Source: Bacteroidetes bacterium 43-93 (GTDB lineage: Bacteria; Bacteroidota; Bacteroidia; Chitinophagales; Chitinophagaceae). Taken from it: a DNA stretch of 49,432 bases. Within the stretch, counting starts at the first letter, position 1; the number at the start of each line of letters is the position of its first letter. This document shows, piece by piece, positions 38,713 to 46,514 of this stretch. A program made the translations under genes and the position numbers. Below the pieces are notes generated by a model. It worked only from the letters and a program-made list of their open reading frames with translations, did not search any database and had not been told where the DNA came from. The stretch covers positions 1 through 49,432 of the forward strand of contig MKUO01000020.1 in the NCBI GenBank assembly GCA_001897855.1, in the 5' to 3' direction.

Positions 38713-39108
38713 TTAGAATTGTTCCAGTACGTGGTTAATGGTAGAACTGGTAAGAGGTTTATTCAGGAATTGTTTTACAGAAGAATATCCTTTTACCCGG
38801 GCAATATCATTTTCATTAATAGAGGAAGAAAGCATATAAATATAGAAGTTGCTTCTTCGTTCTGCCGGTAATGTTTCAAAAGACTCTACAAACTCAAAGC
38901 CGTTCATCACAGGCATTTGAATATCTACAAAAATTATCGTTGGTATATCATTCGAAGCCATCGTCCTTAAATAGATCAAGGCGTCATTAGCCTGTTGAAA
39001 TGTAGACACACTTGCGCAACGACCTGTATTCTGAATAATCTTCTCAGCTATAAAGCAATCTAACTTACTGTCATCAACAACTATAAAGTTCAGTTTCTCC
39101 TGGCTCAT
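38713..39108 (-). CDS. Stand-alone response-regulator receiver protein
   Basis: 131 residues from ATG 39108, a single REC domain. Acidic pair VVDDSK near 11-13, phospho-Asp62 in FVDIQMPVMNG, Ser in MLSSSIN and Lys in FLNKPL. No output domain. It starts 1 nt after the REC-histidine kinase gene and is the last of the minus-strand signalling genes. CheY-like relay partners of this kind receive phosphate from hybrid kinases. Confidence 0.92.
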   Translation of the reverse strand: MSQEKLNFIVVDDSKLDCFIAEKIIQNTGRCASVSTFQQANDALIYLRTMASNDIPTIIFVDIQMPVMNGFEFVESFETLPAERRSNFYIYMLSSSINENDIARVKGYSSVKQFLNKPLTSSTINHVLEQF

Positions 39109-39109
39109 T

Positions 39110-40198
39110 TTATTTATTTGGGATGGCGATAGAAAAAGTCGTTCCTTCTGCCGAGGATACAACGTCTATCTTACCATTTAATTTTCCTAATGCATCTTTT
39201 ACGTTATACAGTCCAAAGCCAGATCCTACCTCCTCGCTATTTCCCCTGTAAAACATGTTAAATATCTGGTTAATGCTGTTTTCCGGAATACCGATGCCAT
39301 TATCCTTCACTACAATATTAGCTATTCCTTTGGCAACATTTACATCCAGTTCTACAAATTTATTTTCGTTATTTTTTACCTGGTATTTAAAGGCGTTGGA
39401 TAGCAAATTATTAAGTATGATCTTTATAGATACTTCATCAGAACGGAATGTTTCTGCCTGTTGTACATTCTTAACAAACTTTACATTGTTCATTTTGCTG
39501 GTTACTTCGTAAATATCAGAAAGGTCTTTCACAATATCATCGAAGTTAATATCAGCAATTTCCACCTCACCTCGCCGTATACTATAATAATCATGCAGGT
39601 TTTGGATATAATTATCCAGTTTCAGCATGGCGTTTTCCATCATCCCCATCATTTCCTTTACGTCCGCAAGATTATCTGTATGCTTGGCGAGGTCTATGAT
39701 ACCCAACACACTTAATATAGGACCACGCATATCGTGGGTGGCACTGTATGCAAATTTGTCCAGCTCGTTATATGCTTTCTGCAGTTCTTCGTTCTTTACA
39801 GCGAGCATTGCAGTGGTAACATAGAACTTATATCCCTGATCGATCGACGAACGTATATCATCCTCAGACCAGGGTTTCTTAATATACCTGTAAACATGGC
39901 CACGGTTAATGGCATTGATAACAGATTCTATATCTGCATAGCCTGTAATAAGTATCCTGATGGGGTTAGGAAATTCCTTACGTATCTCTTCAAAGAATTC
40001 AACGCCGGTTTTATCAGGCATTTTTTGATCACTCAGGATAACGCTGATATCAGGGTTAGCCTTCAGGTGATTGATTGCCTCCGTTGTGTTGATCGCTACA
40101 AATATATTATAATCAAACCTAAATGCGGCTTTGAAGCTGATGAGGTTATTTTGCTCATCATCTATATATAGTACTTTTATTTTATCCTTACCATTCAC
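39110..40198 (-). CDS. REC-HisKA-HATPase hybrid histidine kinase (soluble)
   Basis: 362 residues from GTG 40198. N-terminal receiver (1-125): LYIDDEQNNLISFKA, phospho-Asp57, ILITGYAD, YIKKPW. A short coiled coil leads into the dimerisation helix with phospho-His155 in YSATHDMRGPILSVLG, then an ATPase with LLSNAFKYQ, VKDNGIGIPENS and GSGFGLYNVKD. No membrane helix is present. The DEQNN/KPW receiver type resembles those of RpfG-like regulators. It follows the 7TMR-DISM kinase by 11 nt. Confidence 0.93.
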   Translation of the reverse strand: MNGKDKIKVLYIDDEQNNLISFKAAFRFDYNIFVAINTTEAINHLKANPDISVILSDQKMPDKTGVEFFEEIRKEFPNPIRILITGYADIESVINAINRGHVYRYIKKPWSEDDIRSSIDQGYKFYVTTAMLAVKNEELQKAYNELDKFAYSATHDMRGPILSVLGIIDLAKHTDNLADVKEMMGMMENAMLKLDNYIQNLHDYYSIRRGEVEIADINFDDIVKDLSDIYEVTSKMNNVKFVKNVQQAETFRSDEVSIKIILNNLLSNAFKYQVKNNENKFVELDVNVAKGIANIVVKDNGIGIPENSINQIFNMFYRGNSEEVGSGFGLYNVKDALGKLNGKIDVVSSAEGTTFSIAIPNK

Positions 40199-40209
40199 TA
40201 GCGTACGTT

Positions 40210-42402
40210 TTAAAGTGTTTGATGAATAATAGGAAGCTCAATGATAAATTCTGTACCCTCTCCTAATGCCGAATTTACGTTTATTGTTCCATTATGTTTA
40301 GCAATTGTATTATATGCAATGGAAAGTCCTAATCCTGTACCCTCTCCTACATCTTTTGTTGTAAAGAAAGGTTCAAAAAGCTTTTTCTTTGTTGCCTCAT
40401 CCATACCGGTGCCATTATCCTTAATCCTGACAGTTACAGAATCTCCGTTCGCACTTGTAGAAACCGTCAGCAAACCACCTTTCGCCTCCTTGAAACGTTC
40501 TTTAATAGCATACAGGCCATTCGTCATAATGTTGAGGAACACCTGGTTTAGTTTGCCCGGGAAACATTCCACCAATGGTAAATCACCATAATGCTTTGCA
40601 ACTTCAATACGATTATCAAGCTGGTTGTTTACAATAACAAGCGTTGAGTCAAGCCCTTCATTGATGTTGGCCTTCTTCAGATCATCCTCGTCCAGCCTTG
40701 AGAAAATGCGCAAACCTTTTACTATCTCTGCAGTTCTTGATGAGCCTTCATTGATACCGTTTAAAAGATAGTCGATCTCAGTTTTCAGATAATCAAAATC
40801 ATATTCCTGTTTCAGATCATCAATCTTCTTTTTCTTCTCTTCAACAGGCTCATCGTTCAATGTAATTGTTTCGATCTCGTTCAACATGGTAATTACCATA
40901 TCTACATCTCGCTTCAAGGGCTTTACATTAGACGTAACAAAGTTGATCGGGTTATTGATCTCATGCGCTATGCCGGCAGTAAGCTGACCGAGAGAAGCCA
41001 TTTTCTCAGATTCTACCAGCTGCATTTCGGCTTCCTTGAGGTCGCTGATAGCTTTACTGAGGTCGTCGTTAGATTGTCTAAGTTCCTGTGTTCGCTCCGT
41101 AACCTTTGCCTCCAATATAATATTTTGCTCTCTCACAATCCGCGCGTTTTCTTCCAGGGCCCCCATCGCCTGCGCCTGCGATTCTTCTTTTTCTTTCCGG
41201 AATATATTGATCTTATCTGCGAGGGCGAAAGACAGCAACACGATCTCTATTACAGACGCTATCTGTAATGCGAATGTCGATGCTGTATTATAGGGAACAA
41301 TATCGTAATCTTTCAGCACAAAAATAACCGCGCCTATTAATAGCAAACTCCACGCGAGTAAGAAGAACCCGGCGGGCCTGTAATGCCTGCGATAGATTAC
41401 ATAAGATACAAACAAAGAATATAACGAGGCTATAGCCGTATTTAATTGCATTACCTGGAAAGCGATGGACCGCATCCCGAGTAACGAAAGGGCAATGCTG
41501 AAAACGAAAATTCCATTGAAAAAGATCAGGCCGTAATGTAGCTTACGAACTTGCTCTTTAGTCCTGAGAAAATTCTTAATGAATTCAATCGCCGCCATAG
41601 CCCCAAGGCAAGAAAATAATGTAGGCCCTTGTAAAGCTAACCAGGGCGAATTGGGCCACAGGTATTTGAAAGTGAAACTTTGCAAAGTTGTCTGTGTCAA
41701 CCCTACCGTAATGATGTAAACAACGTACAACAGGTAACTCCTATCGCGAACTGAGAAGTAAACAAAAAGATTGTAGAAAGACATCACCAGGATAATACCT
41801 GTAAATATGGCCATCAACAGCTCTTTCTGATAGCTATTGCTAACTACCTGGGTTTCTGTGCCCAATCTTACAGGGAACACCAGCTGCGCCGCACTTTTTA
41901 CTCTTAATAGAATCTCTACAGTATTACCCGGTTGTGCACCGGTACTGAAAACGTAATTACGATCGTTATACTTGCGCTCATAAAATGGCTTATGCTTATC
42001 AACGCTCTCCTTTAACAACAACTTCCCATCCTGCGAAAACACGTAAATATCCCCCTCATCAATCAGCGGTTGTTCTACAAGAAGCAAAGGCGTCTCAGAA
42101 GTATTGTTTTTCAGTTCAAACTTTATCCAAAAAGCAGAATTAGAAAGTGCGAAATTGGGTATTTTGCTCGTAACAGGCTTGTATGCGGTAGAAGAAAAAG
42201 CCTGTTGATAGCTTAGCGTATTTGTTGCGTCCTCTAACACGCTCATACTAGTGCCCGGTATAGTCACCAATTGATCGCTGGTAGCATAATCTACCCTTCC
42301 GGCGTAGGATATACCTGCAGAAAAAATCAATAGTATGGCTAATTTTATTCGTACAAACCAGTTGCTTTCACGAAAAAAAATATGCGCTACGTTAGGAGTC
42401 AT
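40210..42402 (-). CDS. 7TMR-DISM sensor histidine kinase
   Basis: 730 residues. After a signal peptide (to about 34), a periplasmic 7TMR-DISMED2-type carbohydrate-binding-like beta domain runs to about 190, with FWIKFELKNNT and VEILLRVKSAAQLVFPVRLG. Seven membrane helices follow (195-400), then a coiled coil (400-470), HisKA with phospho-His480 in GQLTAGIAHEINNPINF and HATPase with IKDNGTGMD and GEGTGLGLSIAYNTIAKH. It senses an external ligand, typically a small molecule or sugar. It is transcribed from the same strand as the two genes upstream (GNAT, E1-nitroreductase). Confidence 0.93.
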   Translation of the reverse strand: MTPNVAHIFFRESNWFVRIKLAILLIFSAGISYAGRVDYATSDQLVTIPGTSMSVLEDATNTLSYQQAFSSTAYKPVTSKIPNFALSNSAFWIKFELKNNTSETPLLLVEQPLIDEGDIYVFSQDGKLLLKESVDKHKPFYERKYNDRNYVFSTGAQPGNTVEILLRVKSAAQLVFPVRLGTETQVVSNSYQKELLMAIFTGIILVMSFYNLFVYFSVRDRSYLLYVVYIITVGLTQTTLQSFTFKYLWPNSPWLALQGPTLFSCLGAMAAIEFIKNFLRTKEQVRKLHYGLIFFNGIFVFSIALSLLGMRSIAFQVMQLNTAIASLYSLFVSYVIYRRHYRPAGFFLLAWSLLLIGAVIFVLKDYDIVPYNTASTFALQIASVIEIVLLSFALADKINIFRKEKEESQAQAMGALEENARIVREQNIILEAKVTERTQELRQSNDDLSKAISDLKEAEMQLVESEKMASLGQLTAGIAHEINNPINFVTSNVKPLKRDVDMVITMLNEIETITLNDEPVEEKKKKIDDLKQEYDFDYLKTEIDYLLNGINEGSSRTAEIVKGLRIFSRLDEDDLKKANINEGLDSTLVIVNNQLDNRIEVAKHYGDLPLVECFPGKLNQVFLNIMTNGLYAIKERFKEAKGGLLTVSTSANGDSVTVRIKDNGTGMDEATKKKLFEPFFTTKDVGEGTGLGLSIAYNTIAKHNGTINVNSALGEGTEFIIELPIIHQTL

Positions 42403-42521
42403 GCTATGACCGATAGTTCGGCACCATCAATGGGTTAAAAATGTTAATACTAGCTCCTCTATACCAACCCAACAATTACCTCACTAATATATTACTCTTT
42501 ATGATTATTAACAACCTATAC

Positions 42522-42561
42522 ATCAACATTTAATTATTGTTGATAAGAAAACTGGTTATCA
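42522..42561. promoter_or_regulatory. Two overlapping alternative hairpins in the gap before the 7TMR-DISM kinase
   Basis: ATCAACA...TGTTGAT (42522-42528 / 42538-42544) and TGATAA...TTATCA (42541-42546 / 42556-42561) share the bases TGAT, so only one can form at a time. The second covers the E1-nitroreductase stop codon. No T-run follows. This may be an mRNA attenuator or processing site. Confidence 0.3.
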
Positions 42562-44877
42562 GGCTGTTATAAGGATATTTTTCACATCCTTCCTATAAGG
42601 TAATATTTGCGGCCCGGGTGCTTTAAATACTCTAAACAGGTAAATTATAGACTCGTTACCATCGAGGCCCTTGTAACCAGTCATATCCCTGAATTCGTTG
42701 TACAGTTCCTTTATGTGAGGAGTTATTCCGGGTGGCATATCCGGCGCATTTTGCTCCAGGCGTTGAAAAAAGGCAACCGGTACATTCATTGGATGAAATG
42801 CAATATCCAGCTCTGTAGCTTTTAACCACAGTTTTTGAGACGCACGGCCACCGTCGAGAAACGCTTGCTGATCGGTTCCTTCTATGGTAAGCAGCCCCAT
42901 CGCTGAAGCTGTAGTCATATTTTTTATAGAGGCAGTGCTCAAGACCTTTCCGCCATCTATATCCCGCAGAATAGCTACAACTTTGGGATCTCGTATCAAC
43001 CTTACACCTAAAAGATGAGCGGGGCTTAGTTCCAAAGTTGTGATACCCATACCTGTTTTGCGTTCAATAGCCTCAGCCTCGGTCCAGCGCATTTCCTGGT
43101 AGGTGAAATCATAGTGACTTTGTGGCGACAGTACTCTATACCTGTCTGTTTCTGAAATAATCCTGCCAGTTGCTTCCAGTATGGCCGGATCATGAAAGAA
43201 TTTCAGTTTGGTCCCCTTGATTGACGAAACGCAGGATTGGAATTGATCGTACACTTCCTGCCCCAGCTCAACTTGCTGTGTAATTCGTCTGTTAGTATGC
43301 CTTTGAAAAATGACTTTTGATAGATTGTCGTCTGTATGTGGCTCTATACCGTCCTGGGATGTTGCATTCGGGAAGAAAGTGAACGATGCTACAACATCGT
43401 CGCTATTACCTTCCGGATGGTATTTTACTTTTGTCTCAAACCCAAGTTCATGTGATTTTAGGATAACATTCTCTATAGCTGCACCTAATGCTATCATGGA
43501 AGCTGTATCCTTATAATCCATGAACGAAAAGCCAAAGTATCGATCGAAGAATAGTACAAGAACGCCTTTTTCATATACCCATTTCCAAGGTTGGGCATTA
43601 CCACCTGATGGCGCTGTACCTGCAGCATCCACAATCGCTGCTACCTGCTCTTGCGTTAATGCTATTTCACTTTTGTCGTCTGCACTGATGACTTTTGCGG
43701 CTACGTCTTTTAATTTTTCCAGTTCCAGCGGGTGAAATGGATTAGGAACAACATCACTGTTCTCCTTCCTTTGTTTATCACCAACAAGTTCTTCCATATC
43801 CACAAAATAGCGTCCGGATTCATGATACTGATCCAGCGCTATCCGCCTCCATATATCAGCAACGGCCCCGCCGCCTAACGCCACAGCAGAAGCTAATTGT
43901 GGCCAGGTAGTTATGGTATGCCCTATCTCGACGCCTGACGCCTTTAAGCGTGCAGAAATAGTATTCAGGCCAACGATAGGTGCCAGGTAAGGCATCTTCT
44001 CTTCATTGGTTTTTAAGTGTTTCAGTTTGGAAATATCAAGATGGTCCACAAACCCATGCAGAATAGAACGATCAGGTTCCAGGTCGAACCGTTCTACATC
44101 TATAGTGCATCTGTCACTTGCTTCCATCAATACAGGTATGCCGAGTTCTTTTGCTTTAACGCGACAAAGAATTTTCATGTCTACACCGTCACATTCATCT
44201 ATCAAGGCATCTAGTTTACCACCTTCCAGGTAAAAAGCATCCATATTTTCTTCTGTCAGGCCGTCTTCAAAAATGGTAACTTTCAGATATGGATCTATTT
44301 CAGCAATTTCGCGCGCTACGGATATCACCTTCTTAAGCCCAAGGTTTTGCACTCCTGTGCGTATCCTGTTTAGATTTGTCAATTCCAGCAGGTCAAAATC
44401 TGCCAGCCTTATCTCTTTGAAAGAACGTTCCATTGCCAGTGTAACGGCCACAGATTGCCCTACAGATAAGCCAATTACACCAATTACTTTGGTGGCTAAT
44501 ATATCGCGCTCACGTAATGTTATCTTATATTGATTGCGGCTGGTGCGTACTTCTATGAATTCTGCTTCATCGAGCAAGTGCACTATACGTTTACTCCATG
44601 GATAGTAAACCCATACCCCGTAACTAGTCAAATCCCCATTCGTATGTTCATGGATCAAAGAATCATATTCTTCATCAGTCAACTGTTTTGTAGGGTTCCT
44701 GATCTTAAACATTTCCTGCAATTGAGGAACTATCTCATCATACAGGAATATATCTTCTGCCTGCAGCAGCTCGTCAAAACGGGCTTTTTCTTCGGGATTA
44801 TTAAATCTGAAAAAAACGGGCTTATATAAATTCCTCTGTTGTTCTGTTTTGTTTTTGGCTATAGTTATCCTATCCAT
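42559..44877 (-). CDS. ThiF/E1-type adenylating domain fused to nitroreductase-type flavin domain (Rv1355c-like)
   Basis: 772 residues. Residues 1-115 are an unassigned N-terminal part. An E1/ThiF domain (~125-345) follows: nucleotide loop GVIGLSVGQSVA at 133-144, Asp160/Asp162, the Arg-finger segment TNLNR at 167-171, and ECDGVDMK at 228-235 in place of the usual CTDNFDTR. No CxxC zinc pairs are present. The nitroreductase-type domain (~400-750) has DAAGTAPSGGNAQPWKW at 417-433, RHTNRRITQQ at 526-535, and LELSPAHLLGV about 615. The M. tuberculosis Rv1355c (MoeY) family has this architecture and no known reaction. It follows the GNAT gene by 20 nt. Confidence 0.88.
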   Translation of the reverse strand: MDRITIAKNKTEQQRNLYKPVFFRFNNPEEKARFDELLQAEDIFLYDEIVPQLQEMFKIRNPTKQLTDEEYDSLIHEHTNGDLTSYGVWVYYPWSKRIVHLLDEAEFIEVRTSRNQYKITLRERDILATKVIGVIGLSVGQSVAVTLAMERSFKEIRLADFDLLELTNLNRIRTGVQNLGLKKVISVAREIAEIDPYLKVTIFEDGLTEENMDAFYLEGGKLDALIDECDGVDMKILCRVKAKELGIPVLMEASDRCTIDVERFDLEPDRSILHGFVDHLDISKLKHLKTNEEKMPYLAPIVGLNTISARLKASGVEIGHTITTWPQLASAVALGGGAVADIWRRIALDQYHESGRYFVDMEELVGDKQRKENSDVVPNPFHPLELEKLKDVAAKVISADDKSEIALTQEQVAAIVDAAGTAPSGGNAQPWKWVYEKGVLVLFFDRYFGFSFMDYKDTASMIALGAAIENVILKSHELGFETKVKYHPEGNSDDVVASFTFFPNATSQDGIEPHTDDNLSKVIFQRHTNRRITQQVELGQEVYDQFQSCVSSIKGTKLKFFHDPAILEATGRIISETDRYRVLSPQSHYDFTYQEMRWTEAEAIERKTGMGITTLELSPAHLLGVRLIRDPKVVAILRDIDGGKVLSTASIKNMTTASAMGLLTIEGTDQQAFLDGGRASQKLWLKATELDIAFHPMNVPVAFFQRLEQNAPDMPPGITPHIKELYNEFRDMTGYKGLDGNESIIYLFRVFKAPGPQILPYRKDVKNILITA

Positions 44878-44897
44878 ATTAATATCAGGCTAACGTT

Positions 44898-45611
44898 TTA
44901 TTTATTTAAATTTGGTATTTTCAAGTCGTACACAACATCCAGAATCCTTCCCTTGGGGCCTATCTCTTCTTTATGTTGTTGCAGGTTTTTACGCAGATCA
45001 AATATAATTTCTCGTTCTTCGGGATCGGCAGTTTCTAATGTTGTGGTATTATTAATAATCACAGCGGTAGCAATAAGGTCTTCTTTAGGATAATAAAATG
45101 TACCATTATTGCCTAGAAACGTTGCAATTTCAAAACCTACGCGTGCGCTATTTTTAACCGTTGCAGGTGCGCAAAGCCCAAACAAAGTTGTAAGCTGAAG
45201 CTGCTCTGTGATAGCAACCGCCGCCCGGCCAAGATACATGCTTCCGATGCCTAAACCCGCAACTTCCCTGGAGTTCCATAAACCGCAAAACTCGGCGGTT
45301 CCTGCCTCTGCATATTTTTGTATCTGCTGATGGATTGTTATATCCATATCCTTTACGGCCTTTTCAATAGGCAATTCATATTTACCGCCTGCAACCTGTA
45401 CGCGGGCACCGCCATACACTTTCTCTCCATCTTCAGATTCTACAAGTATTACATAGGTGTTAGAATCTTCAAACCATTCTATATTGGCTGACGTGATCAT
45501 AGTGATACCGTAGATCTTCAGCACCTTCATGTGCCCATCAACAAATTTCTGGCAAGCTGCTACATCATCCGGCGCCCTGAATGCCTTAATAACAATTTTG
45601 ATGTAGCTCAT
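44898..45611 (-). CDS. GNAT-like acyltransferase, N-acyl amino acid/AHL synthase-like
   Basis: 237 residues from ATG 45611. The N-terminal third ends in GEKVYGGARVQVAGGKYELP (63-81), which resembles the 'G-x-ARL' core of acyl-homoserine lactone and FeeM-type N-acyl amino acid synthases; next comes Glu107 in AEFCGLWNS. The GNAT acyl-CoA loop follows as EVAGLGIGSMYLGRA (116-130), then NSARVGFEI (154-162). A charged tail of ~50 residues follows. Assignment to the autoinducer-synthase group is inferred from pattern, not from a search; a plain GNAT is possible. Confidence 0.6.
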   Translation of the reverse strand: MSYIKIVIKAFRAPDDVAACQKFVDGHMKVLKIYGITMITSANIEWFEDSNTYVILVESEDGEKVYGGARVQVAGGKYELPIEKAVKDMDITIHQQIQKYAEAGTAEFCGLWNSREVAGLGIGSMYLGRAAVAITEQLQLTTLFGLCAPATVKNSARVGFEIATFLGNNGTFYYPKEDLIATAVIINNTTTLETADPEEREIIFDLRKNLQQHKEEIGPKGRILDVVYDLKIPNLNK

Positions 45612-45685
45612 GGCATATTAGTTGTTTCAATAAGAACGAATATGAAACGTGGCGATTGATGAACGCTTTCTAAAATATCAGTCAT
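45608..45685 (-). CDS. 25-codon ORF overlapping the GNAT start (possible leader peptide)
   Basis: ATG at 45685 runs 25 codons to a TGA that shares ATGA with the GNAT start codon. The peptide begins MTDILESVHQSPRFIFV, with no obvious signal peptide. Overlap of this kind couples translation in many operons, but an ORF this short can arise by chance. Confidence 0.25.
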   Translation of the reverse strand: MTDILESVHQSPRFIFVLIETTNMP

Positions 45686-45738
45686 TATTATTTACCCTTC
45701 GTGCTTTTATCTAAATGTTTCAATAAAATACTACATTG

Positions 45739-45774
45739 AAATATTATTGATTAAAAATTACATCAATAATATTT
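45739..45774. repeat. 13-bp perfect inverted repeat upstream of the GNAT/E1 operon
   Basis: AAATATTATTGAT and ATCAATAATATTT, separated by 10 nt, so the half-sites are 23 bp apart, about two helical turns. The site lies about 130 bp upstream of the GNAT ATG and about 280 bp upstream of the divergent REC gene. Such geometry suits a dimeric regulator. Confidence 0.6.
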
Positions 45775-46049
45775 AAAAGTCAAGCTATCCTAAAAAAATG
45801 AAGTACTAATGGGCAGGCATAATTAACCGTAGCATTATTACAGATTTTTTGCTTTTTCTCTCCCTATAAGCCCTTATCTGCTAATACTCAGCGTGTTTTC
45901 AATTGTAAAAGTAATGCTACTTTTGCATTTTCTACAATATTATAAACTTTATGCTCAAACTAATGGTATTTTCCATAAATGCAGTATCTTTAGTTGAAGC
46001 ATATTTACATACGTTTGAAGCTTTTAATTAAACCATTATCAAACAGAGG
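45775..46049. promoter_or_regulatory. Rest of the AT-rich divergent intergenic region with putative -7 box
   Basis: Together with 45612-45774 this is a 438-nt gap between the GNAT gene and the divergent REC gene. Plus-strand TACTTTTG (45918-45925) fits TAnnTTTG, 124 nt before the REC ATG. I see no further coding sequence or RNA gene. Confidence 0.4.
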
Positions 46050-46514
46050 ATGCCTGCAGATAAAATAAATATACTATATGTAGATGATGAGCAAAACAAC
46101 CTCATTTCGTTCAAGGCGACCTTTAGGATGAAATATGCTGTGTTTACTGCTATCAGTGGAGAAGAGGCTATTAAGATATTGGATAGCCAACCGATAGATA
46201 TTATTGTGACAGACCAACGGATGCCAAACATGACAGGCGTAGAGTTTTTGGAATCTATCCTTGAAAAGCACCCGGACCCGATGCGTATTTTGCTTACCGG
46301 GTATGCAGACCTGAATGCCGTCATAGATGCAGTTAATAAAGGAAAGATATTTCATTACCTTACCAAGCCCTGGAATGAGGATGAACTGGATATGACGATA
46401 AAACGCGCCTACGATGTATATAAGCTTAAAAAGGACGAAAAGGAACTGACAGAAAAACTGGGCGTTACCAATGCTCAACTTGAATTTCTTTTAAGACAAC
46501 AGTTACTTTCTTAA
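46050..46514 (+). CDS. Single-domain response regulator, related to the hybrid kinase receiver
   Basis: 154 residues from ATG 46050. The receiver has LYVDDEQNNLISFKATF at 9-25, phospho-Asp55 in IIVTDQRMPNMTG, ILLTGYAD and YLTKPW. It is followed by only a short coiled coil (LKKDEKELTEKLGVTNAQ) and no output domain. The 12-residue run DDEQNNLISFKA and much of the rest match the receiver of the REC-kinase hybrid 6 kb away, so the two are paralogues. It is transcribed away from the GNAT operon. Confidence 0.9.
   Translation: MPADKINILYVDDEQNNLISFKATFRMKYAVFTAISGEEAIKILDSQPIDIIVTDQRMPNMTGVEFLESILEKHPDPMRILLTGYADLNAVIDAVNKGKIFHYLTKPWNEDELDMTIKRAYDVYKLKKDEKELTEKLGVTNAQLEFLLRQQLLS

Follow-up and report, generated by a model that had tools for sequence, protein, structure and literature searches.

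Six adjoining genes in a contig of Bacteroidetes bacterium 43-93 (MKUO01000020.1, assembly GCA_001897855.1) raise the question of whether enzymes that make an acylated small molecule and the phosphorelay proteins encoded beside them form a single circuit, in which a membrane kinase detects the product of its neighbours. The window analysed is the entire contig, 49,432 nt in length, and its relatives are Bacteroidota. Five of the genes lie on the minus strand and encode an acyltransferase resembling N-acyl amino acid synthases, a fusion enzyme of the TrzS/Rv1355c family, a 7TMR-DISM sensor histidine kinase, a soluble receiver-histidine kinase (REC-HK) and a stand-alone receiver domain (REC) protein; a divergent single-receiver protein (RECp) is encoded beside them. 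With a probability of roughly 70 %, this cassette is a circuit in which tailored N-acyl amino acids are made by a synthase and detected by a receptor, in a layout like that of the PhcBSRQ system of Ralstonia. This reading draws directly on how the genes are linked, on their domains and predicted folds, on the conservation of phospho-residues, on the exchange of the tailoring enzyme and on modest tracking of that enzyme by the sensor. The nature of the product, recognition of this product by the sensor, the direction of the relay, a dependence on cell density and the output are inferred.

Matches to NF005901, the model of the Rv1355c family (E <= 1e-30, with each draw counting the window's genome), were present in 57 of 294 genomes of the same family (40 over the cut-off), in 11 of 149 taken from the order and in 12 of 395 taken from the phylum as a whole, one of the last, G300, scoring merely 37 bits on inspection. 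The TrzS loci, picked without regard to kinases, comprised 56 other family loci, 18 phylum or order loci, 80 of 584 named loci and the window, with 143 left after duplicate removal; full flanks (at least 2.5 kb downstream and at least 1.5 kb upstream) were available for 118. A DISM kinase was encoded within four genes of TrzS in 117 of these 118 loci, a REC-HK in 110 and a RECp homologue (>150 bits), not always divergent, in 107. The acyltransferase was called in 117, and in the remaining locus, L148, it was recovered by tblastn.

Searches with alignments of the acyltransferase (1e-20) and of the sensor (1e-70) detected 90 copies in 89 and matches in 92, respectively, of the 294 family genomes. 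Both were present in 88 genomes, the acyltransferase only in one, the sensor only in four and neither in 201 (Fisher P=6e-69, phylogeny ignored). Within 4 kb of a DISM sensor lay 86 of the 90 acyltransferase copies, the remaining four being at contig ends, and 85 of 96 sensor matches were linked to an acyltransferase. In the phylum draw the acyltransferase was found in 13 of 395 genomes, with the kinase adjoining in every locus fetched. An earlier note on this DNA had proposed that the first two genes make a small acylated molecule detected by the sensor kinase, and had named, as a result that would refute this, an enzyme pair found mostly apart from such kinases in related genomes; the survey of TrzS loci and the acyltransferase search both gave the opposite, and the proposal is supported in its core. 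Since the window's genome encodes a single 7TMR-DISM_7TM protein (E <= 0.001) and the arrangement recurs elsewhere, it is more than chance.

The gene between the acyltransferase and the kinase was found to be exchangeable. ThiF was not detected in 33 of the 89 acyltransferase genomes, and in these loci, all of which were fetched, the acyltransferase and kinase stay. The TrzS slot held a FAD-binding oxidase of ~536 aa in three (L212 and two loci of the window's genus, L210 and L211), a class I SAM methyltransferase of ~254 aa in eight and an ICMT-family methyltransferase of ~212 aa in 11, families assigned by domain scans of the representatives L210, L212, L214, L238, L222 and L241 and by phmmer for the others. 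No gene was detected in the slot in a further 11, its absence being uncertain in three (L213 and L215, near contig ends, and L233, with a 647-nt gap). In addition, L070-L085, L110-L114, L123 and L124 keep the acyltransferase and kinase and encode ThiF without the flavin-oxidase half; the product of such cassettes may be a saturated oxazolone. Among 151 distinct cassettes, 97 had ThiF with the flavin-dependent oxidase, 24 ThiF, 11 none, 10 the ICMT, six the SAM methyltransferase and three the FAD oxidase, counts that are biased towards TrzS as most loci were fetched by TrzS similarity. Among the 24 ThiF loci, the C-terminal half of L069 is long and diverged, and L115 is cut by a contig end. Any of ThiF, the SAM methyltransferase and the ICMT might cap an N-acyl amino acid at its carboxylate, which would be their common logic, and cassettes with either methyltransferase could make N-acyl amino acid esters. 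With the tailoring enzymes swapped, cassettes related to this one would be expected to cap their N-acyl amino acids differently and to have sensors to match.

Agreement between sensor and tailoring enzyme was assessed on 151 cassettes, left from 184 after removal of duplicates and of those with no called acyltransferase or no kinase of at least 650 aa, and on 115 of these that had both a RECp and a REC-HK of 340-410 aa. On trees of the 115 cassettes, the tailoring label changed 16 times for the sensor, 14 for its 7TM part and 16 for its extracellular part, against 19 for the acyltransferase, 23 for the kinase half and 22 for the concatenated relay (ranges over 12 bootstraps 14-17, 13-16, 17-20, 17-20, 22-24 and 21-23, respectively). 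With all 151 cassettes the changes numbered 18 for the sensor, 17 for the 7TM part, 25 for the extracellular part, 26 for the acyltransferase and 30 for the kinase half. Relabelling by tblastn altered two of the 151 labels, L064 and L139, and the ordering held (sensor 17, 7TM part 15, acyltransferase 20, kinase half 23 and relay 23 for the 115). Both of these cassettes carry a tandem pair of acyltransferase genes, so the altered labels are probably wrong. Given the relay, acyltransferase distances in 116 cassettes correlated with those of the extracellular and 7TM parts (partial r 0.248 and 0.256; 0 of 300 permutations); for the HATPase of the same protein partial r was 0.05 (36 of 300). When kinase identity was taken into account (pairs with at least 0.60), pairs of the same type were closer in the 7TM part and in the whole sensor (0 of 500 permutations each), and such closeness was absent for the acyltransferase (461 of 500). 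The sensor tracks the tailoring type better than the kinase half or the relay does, to a modest extent.

The acyltransferase (237 aa; 44898..45611, minus strand) had been labelled GNAT in the earlier note. Domain scans with Pfam and NCBIfam gave no match, DUF3182 alone appearing below the cut-off, and the sequence had no PDB match at E <= 1. The label is upheld by the AlphaFold2 model (mean pLDDT 89.7, 26-sequence alignment), for which the best PDB match in Foldseek was FeeM (2g0b_C, E 4.1e-08, TM-score 0.75 by target), followed among the best 41 matches by BjaI, MesI, RpaI, LasI and TofI among other GNATs. This model suggests an N-acyl amino acid synthase-like enzyme with a GNAT fold nearest to FeeM.

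Adjoining it, the fusion enzyme (772 aa; 42559..44877, minus strand) joins a ThiF cyclase to a flavin-dependent oxidase of the nitroreductase fold. It matched NF005901 at 768.7 bits (cut-off 476) over residues 10-769, and its Pfam domains were ThiF and Nitroreductase; by this sequence evidence it is a member of the oxazolone-forming Rv1355c/TrzS family. The motifs GLSVG, ADFD..NLNR and ECD are common to the fusion enzyme and its Mycolicibacterium and Rhodococcus plasmid homologues, and residues G136/G140, D160/D162, N170/R171, K183 and D230 are the same in one Mycolicibacterium and two Rhodococcus homologues. D230, in the ECD motif, is the putative counterpart of D217 of the Mycobacterium smegmatis enzyme. 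R526, R530, R579 and R581 are invariant in the five sequences compared, and one of them may correspond to R540 in the FMN domain of the M. smegmatis enzyme. In the published account, Rv1355c is TrzS, TrzA makes the N-acyl amino acid, and the M. smegmatis enzyme of the TrzS family cyclizes N-acyl tryptophan with ATP and desaturates it with O2 and FMN to give the oxazolone (PMC12856293).

The membrane kinase (730 aa; 40210..42402, minus strand) comprises a sensor at residues ~1-400 and a kinase half at ~440-728, with matches to 7TMR-DISMED2 (PF07696, 97.4 bits), 7TMR-DISM_7TM (PF07695, 176 bits) and HATPase_c (PF02518, 80.7 bits). Its sensor model matched the periplasmic domain of RetS well (E 7.5e-07, TM-score 0.80 by target), and matched WLS and TMEM87A weakly, with low TM-scores and large root-mean-square deviations. 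WLS and TMEM87A handle lipids, and the title of the TMEM87A structure entry names it as bound to phosphatidylethanolamine (PE). The REC-HK (362 aa, GTG start; 39110..40198, minus strand) has Response_reg and HATPase_c domains, and Response_reg was also matched by the stand-alone REC protein (131 aa; 38713..39108, minus strand), whose ATG start falls inside a longer TTG ORF at 38713-39162, and by RECp (154 aa; 46050..46514, plus strand). Apart from the GNAT label, these scans matched all the domain roles given earlier: ThiF fused to a nitroreductase, a 7TMR-DISM sensor, a soluble REC-kinase and two receivers.

Phospho-acceptor residues do not vary in the aligned sets: His480 of the kinase in 151 of 151 loci, His155 and Asp57 of the REC-HK, along with its Thr85, in 115 of 115, and Asp55 of RECp in 115 of 115. 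A REC is present at the stand-alone position in many cassettes, though not in all, and in a few the REC-HK is missing or swapped for a REC-PAS-HisKA_3 kinase (L158 by domain scan and L115 by reading; the usual form is REC-HisKA). No DNA-binding Pfam domain was found among the cassette proteins, and no helix-turn-helix Pfam domain among ten window proteins scanned. The C-terminal tail of RECp is well conserved, with the consensus NEQLEFLLRQKLLS. Since the R154C change in Ralstonia PhcQ, which lies outside the receiver, resembles a deletion (PMC6989110), conserved tails of this kind may be contact sites.

In the circuit proposed here, the GNAT enzyme would acylate an amino acid. In the window's variant the ThiF half would then adenylate and cyclize the carboxylate of this product and the flavin half would desaturate it, giving an acyl-oxazolone. 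This neutral lipid would reach the membrane or the outside and be bound by the extracellular jelly-roll, the 7TM part, or both, of the 7TMR-DISM kinase, a step to which the predicted folds and the modest co-variation lend some plausibility. Phosphate would then pass to the receivers and the REC-HK, which, as they have no DNA-binding domain, would exert their effect by contacting other proteins, as has been proposed for PhcR and PhcQ (PMC8578825 and PMC6989110).

Several observations weigh against this circuit. Eleven of the 96 sensor matches were not near an acyltransferase; in four genomes (G107, G176, G228 and G271) the contig ends there or the upstream side is missing, while seven sensor copies (L236 and L244-L249) have no adjoining acyltransferase. 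One of them, L245 (G266:C53:16531-17703), is a strong sensor kinase match of 436.6 bits in a genome that also holds a full cassette, and is perhaps an orphan receptor. L122 has TrzS without a kinase and a very divergent acyltransferase (24 % identical), and L157, outside the 118 with 0.5 kb upstream, has neither acyltransferase nor kinase within 5.1 kb downstream. No DISM kinase was annotated in four actinobacterial plasmid TrzS regions, for which the PLSDB tables are incomplete. The REC-HK was also found in CheB/CheR clusters (two alphaproteobacterial cases); it is therefore no marker of quorum sensing, and architecture alone proves nothing. The permutation tests ignore phylogeny, the tree comparison hangs on few label changes, and closeness of same-type pairs was not clear for the extracellular part (32 of 500 permutations). 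Furthermore, same-type pairs at a kinase identity of 0.74-0.84 average a sensor identity of 0.41 +/- 0.11, and at 0.75-0.80 different-type pairs (n=10) reach 0.429 compared with 0.402 for same-type pairs. Fast divergence of the sensor is general, whatever the tailoring type. Exchange within one genus was also considered as proof: compared with L210 and L211, which differ in tailoring enzyme, the window has a sensor identity of 0.42, with 0.82 and 0.86 for the acyltransferase and 0.81 for the kinase, and compared with its same-type relative L055 it has 0.64 for the sensor and 0.77 for the kinase. As same-type pairs often show sensors that are equally different, this case is not exceptional and was set aside as proof.

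Such fast variation and the seven sensor copies without an acyltransferase also fit a rival reading, in which the kinases do not sense the product and control the synthesis of a lipid or antibiotic according to an external cue, such as envelope stress. Pathway-specific regulators commonly adjoin biosynthesis genes, the sensor is of the RetS/LadS type, and subinhibitory antibiotics induce oxazolones in several proteobacteria (PMC12856293). However, the cassette proteins gave no match to a DNA-binding Pfam domain, and an outside cue does not predict a sensor that tends to follow the tailoring enzyme or co-varies with the acyltransferase, so that this explanation appears rather unlikely. The kinase might instead detect the product within the membrane of its own cell only, as lipid-level feedback with no signalling between cells. 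In the same source acyl-tryptophan is found mainly in supernatants but tryptazolones are more abundant inside cells (PMC12856293), the latter observation also telling against the proposed circuit. The weak sensor matches to WLS and PE-bound TMEM87A likewise fit feedback within the cell. The diversity of tailoring combined with variable sensors nevertheless resembles signal specificity types, and the presence of the cassette is patchy (89 of 294 family genomes); feedback confined to one cell is accordingly judged improbable. Least credible, and very improbable indeed, is that the genes travel together by history without functional coupling. The cassette members form a single gene run, which makes the co-inheritance tests partly circular, but the cassette persists while the flanking genes differ: among 121 cassettes with 4.5 kb on either side, the window's flanking genes recurred in nine (TraB), seven (Zip), 17 (GT2) and nine (RluF). 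The acyltransferase and kinase also stay together where another gene, or none, occupies the middle position, and adjacent reading frames of the cassettes are often <=20 nt apart or overlapping. The synthase-receptor circuit therefore remains the preferred reading.

Among described systems, the TrzAS, OxzAB and TyzACB acyl-oxazolone pathways share with the window an N-acyltransferase adjoining a ThiF cyclase and a flavin-dependent oxidase, which TrzS and OxzB combine in one protein; unlike in the window, a sensor kinase beside them is not described in the available parts of published accounts (PMC12856293). The window acyltransferase also differs from TrzAS in having no clear sequence match to the Rhodococcus plasmid gene adjoining TrzS, whose identity as TrzA is assumed (BLASTP E 0.074; hhalign probability 15.6 %, E 0.0017). 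It had no match at 1e-4 in 72,556 plasmid records and no clear sequence match to a GNAT adjoining ThiF on a Streptomyces plasmid. In layout the window resembles PhcBSRQ of Ralstonia, a studied quorum-sensing circuit for 3-OH MAME/PAME that combines a signal enzyme, a membrane kinase, a REC-HK lacking a DNA-binding domain and a single-receiver protein extended by an uncharacterized C-terminal part (PMC8578825 and PMC6989110), the role of signal enzyme being in the window a predicted one. The signal enzyme of PhcBSRQ is, however, a methyltransferase whose product is the methyl ester of a fatty acid, whereas the window has an acyltransferase and a ThiF-flavin enzyme and no PhcB-like methyltransferase; methyltransferases were found in other cassettes only. 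No LysR-type gene was detected among the ten neighbouring window proteins scanned. Direct kinship of the proteins with Phc gained no support from searches of plasmid records with RECp and the REC-HK, which gave general receiver matches; the likeness described here is one of parts and layout.

LuxI-type synthases of acyl-homoserine lactones (AHLs) lie in the same GNAT fold neighbourhood as the window acyltransferase, and the predicted product is likewise an acylated amino acid derivative. FeeM is closer in fold, and a membrane histidine kinase would take the place of LuxR as the receptor. RetS and LadS resemble the window kinase in combining DISMED2 with a 7TM sensor, and LadS was the top plasmid match among those listed (27.8 % identity). 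RetS and LadS are hybrid kinases of the Gac network and are not known to adjoin a lipid-signal synthase. Capped N-acyl amino acids (NAMEs) have been likened to AHLs; they take no part in AHL signalling, however, and the available part of that report names no receptor (PMC11580390). Among the papers listed in a literature search from which subscription journals were largely absent, none linked a 7TMR-DISM kinase to oxazolone chemistry or to this acyltransferase. The parts are known in kind, and a fixed synthase-receptor core with exchangeable tailoring across Bacteroidota was not found among these papers. The cassette is best classed as a variant of kinase-based chemical signalling and as a member of neither the Phc nor the LuxI systems.

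On a broader view, the odds lie slightly in favour of Bacteroidota holding a large unnamed family of lipid-signal circuits, in which a fixed core of LuxI/FeeM-fold synthase and 7TMR-DISM kinase is combined with interchangeable enzymes that modify the carboxylate or the backbone (ThiF-flavin enzyme, ThiF alone, FAD oxidase, SAM methyltransferase, ICMT or none) to give private signals, to which the variable halves of the receptors are matched. Acyl-oxazolones, to which no role has been assigned, would then be one of such signals, culturable genera such as Pedobacter, Mucilaginibacter and Dyadobacter would own widespread and chemically diverse signalling, and a ligand class would be named for a 7TMR-DISM receptor. 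The recurrent receptor kinase makes the role of the product directly testable, with exchanged-enzyme cassettes as ready-made specificity controls.

The ORF coordinates also confirm the six genes described earlier and the intergenic gaps of 20, 156, 11 and 1 nt. It had been suggested that the 156-nt gap between the fusion enzyme and the membrane kinase (42403..42558, no strand) could split two operons. Across 169 cassettes, with duplicates kept, the window included and the earliest possible start codons used (a choice that shortens gaps), the distance to the kinase had a median of 1 nt, was <=20 nt in 120 and exceeded 100 nt in 10; in L055, of the same genus, it was 133 nt. This concern is thus weakened and two separate operons are not favoured, because a long gap is rare, although the gap may hold a promoter of its own. 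A simple script for Bacteroidota-like TAnnTTTG sites gave one loose promoter-like match in the gap, TATATTAG, with a TTG 23 nt ahead. It gave two sites before the divergent REC gene and no site with an upstream TTG before the acyltransferase.

All 13 plasmid records that matched TrzS bore actinobacterial names. In the Rhodococcus plasmid loci L206 and L207 a GGDEF gene lies ~1 kb from the Rv1355c-family genes, in line with the cyclic di-GMP genes that adjoin trzAS of Mycobacterium tuberculosis (PMC12856293). TetR and P450 genes lie in the TrzS regions L205 and L209, and a sensor-domain protein and a response regulator ~5 kb from the Streptomyces ThiF region in L208. Because actinobacterial loci show GGDEF/cyclic di-GMP, TetR, P450 or other genes, the signalling neighbours of TrzS seem to differ by phylum. 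In L236, one of the loci with a DISM kinase and no acyltransferase, the kinase adjoins a different FAD enzyme of the ALO family. The closest named relative among the matches listed, L125, comes from a metagenome-assembled genome labelled Azovibrio restrictus, a betaproteobacterial name; both the cassette and the flanking genes of L125 conform to the Bacteroidota type seen in the window, and the label is probably wrong.

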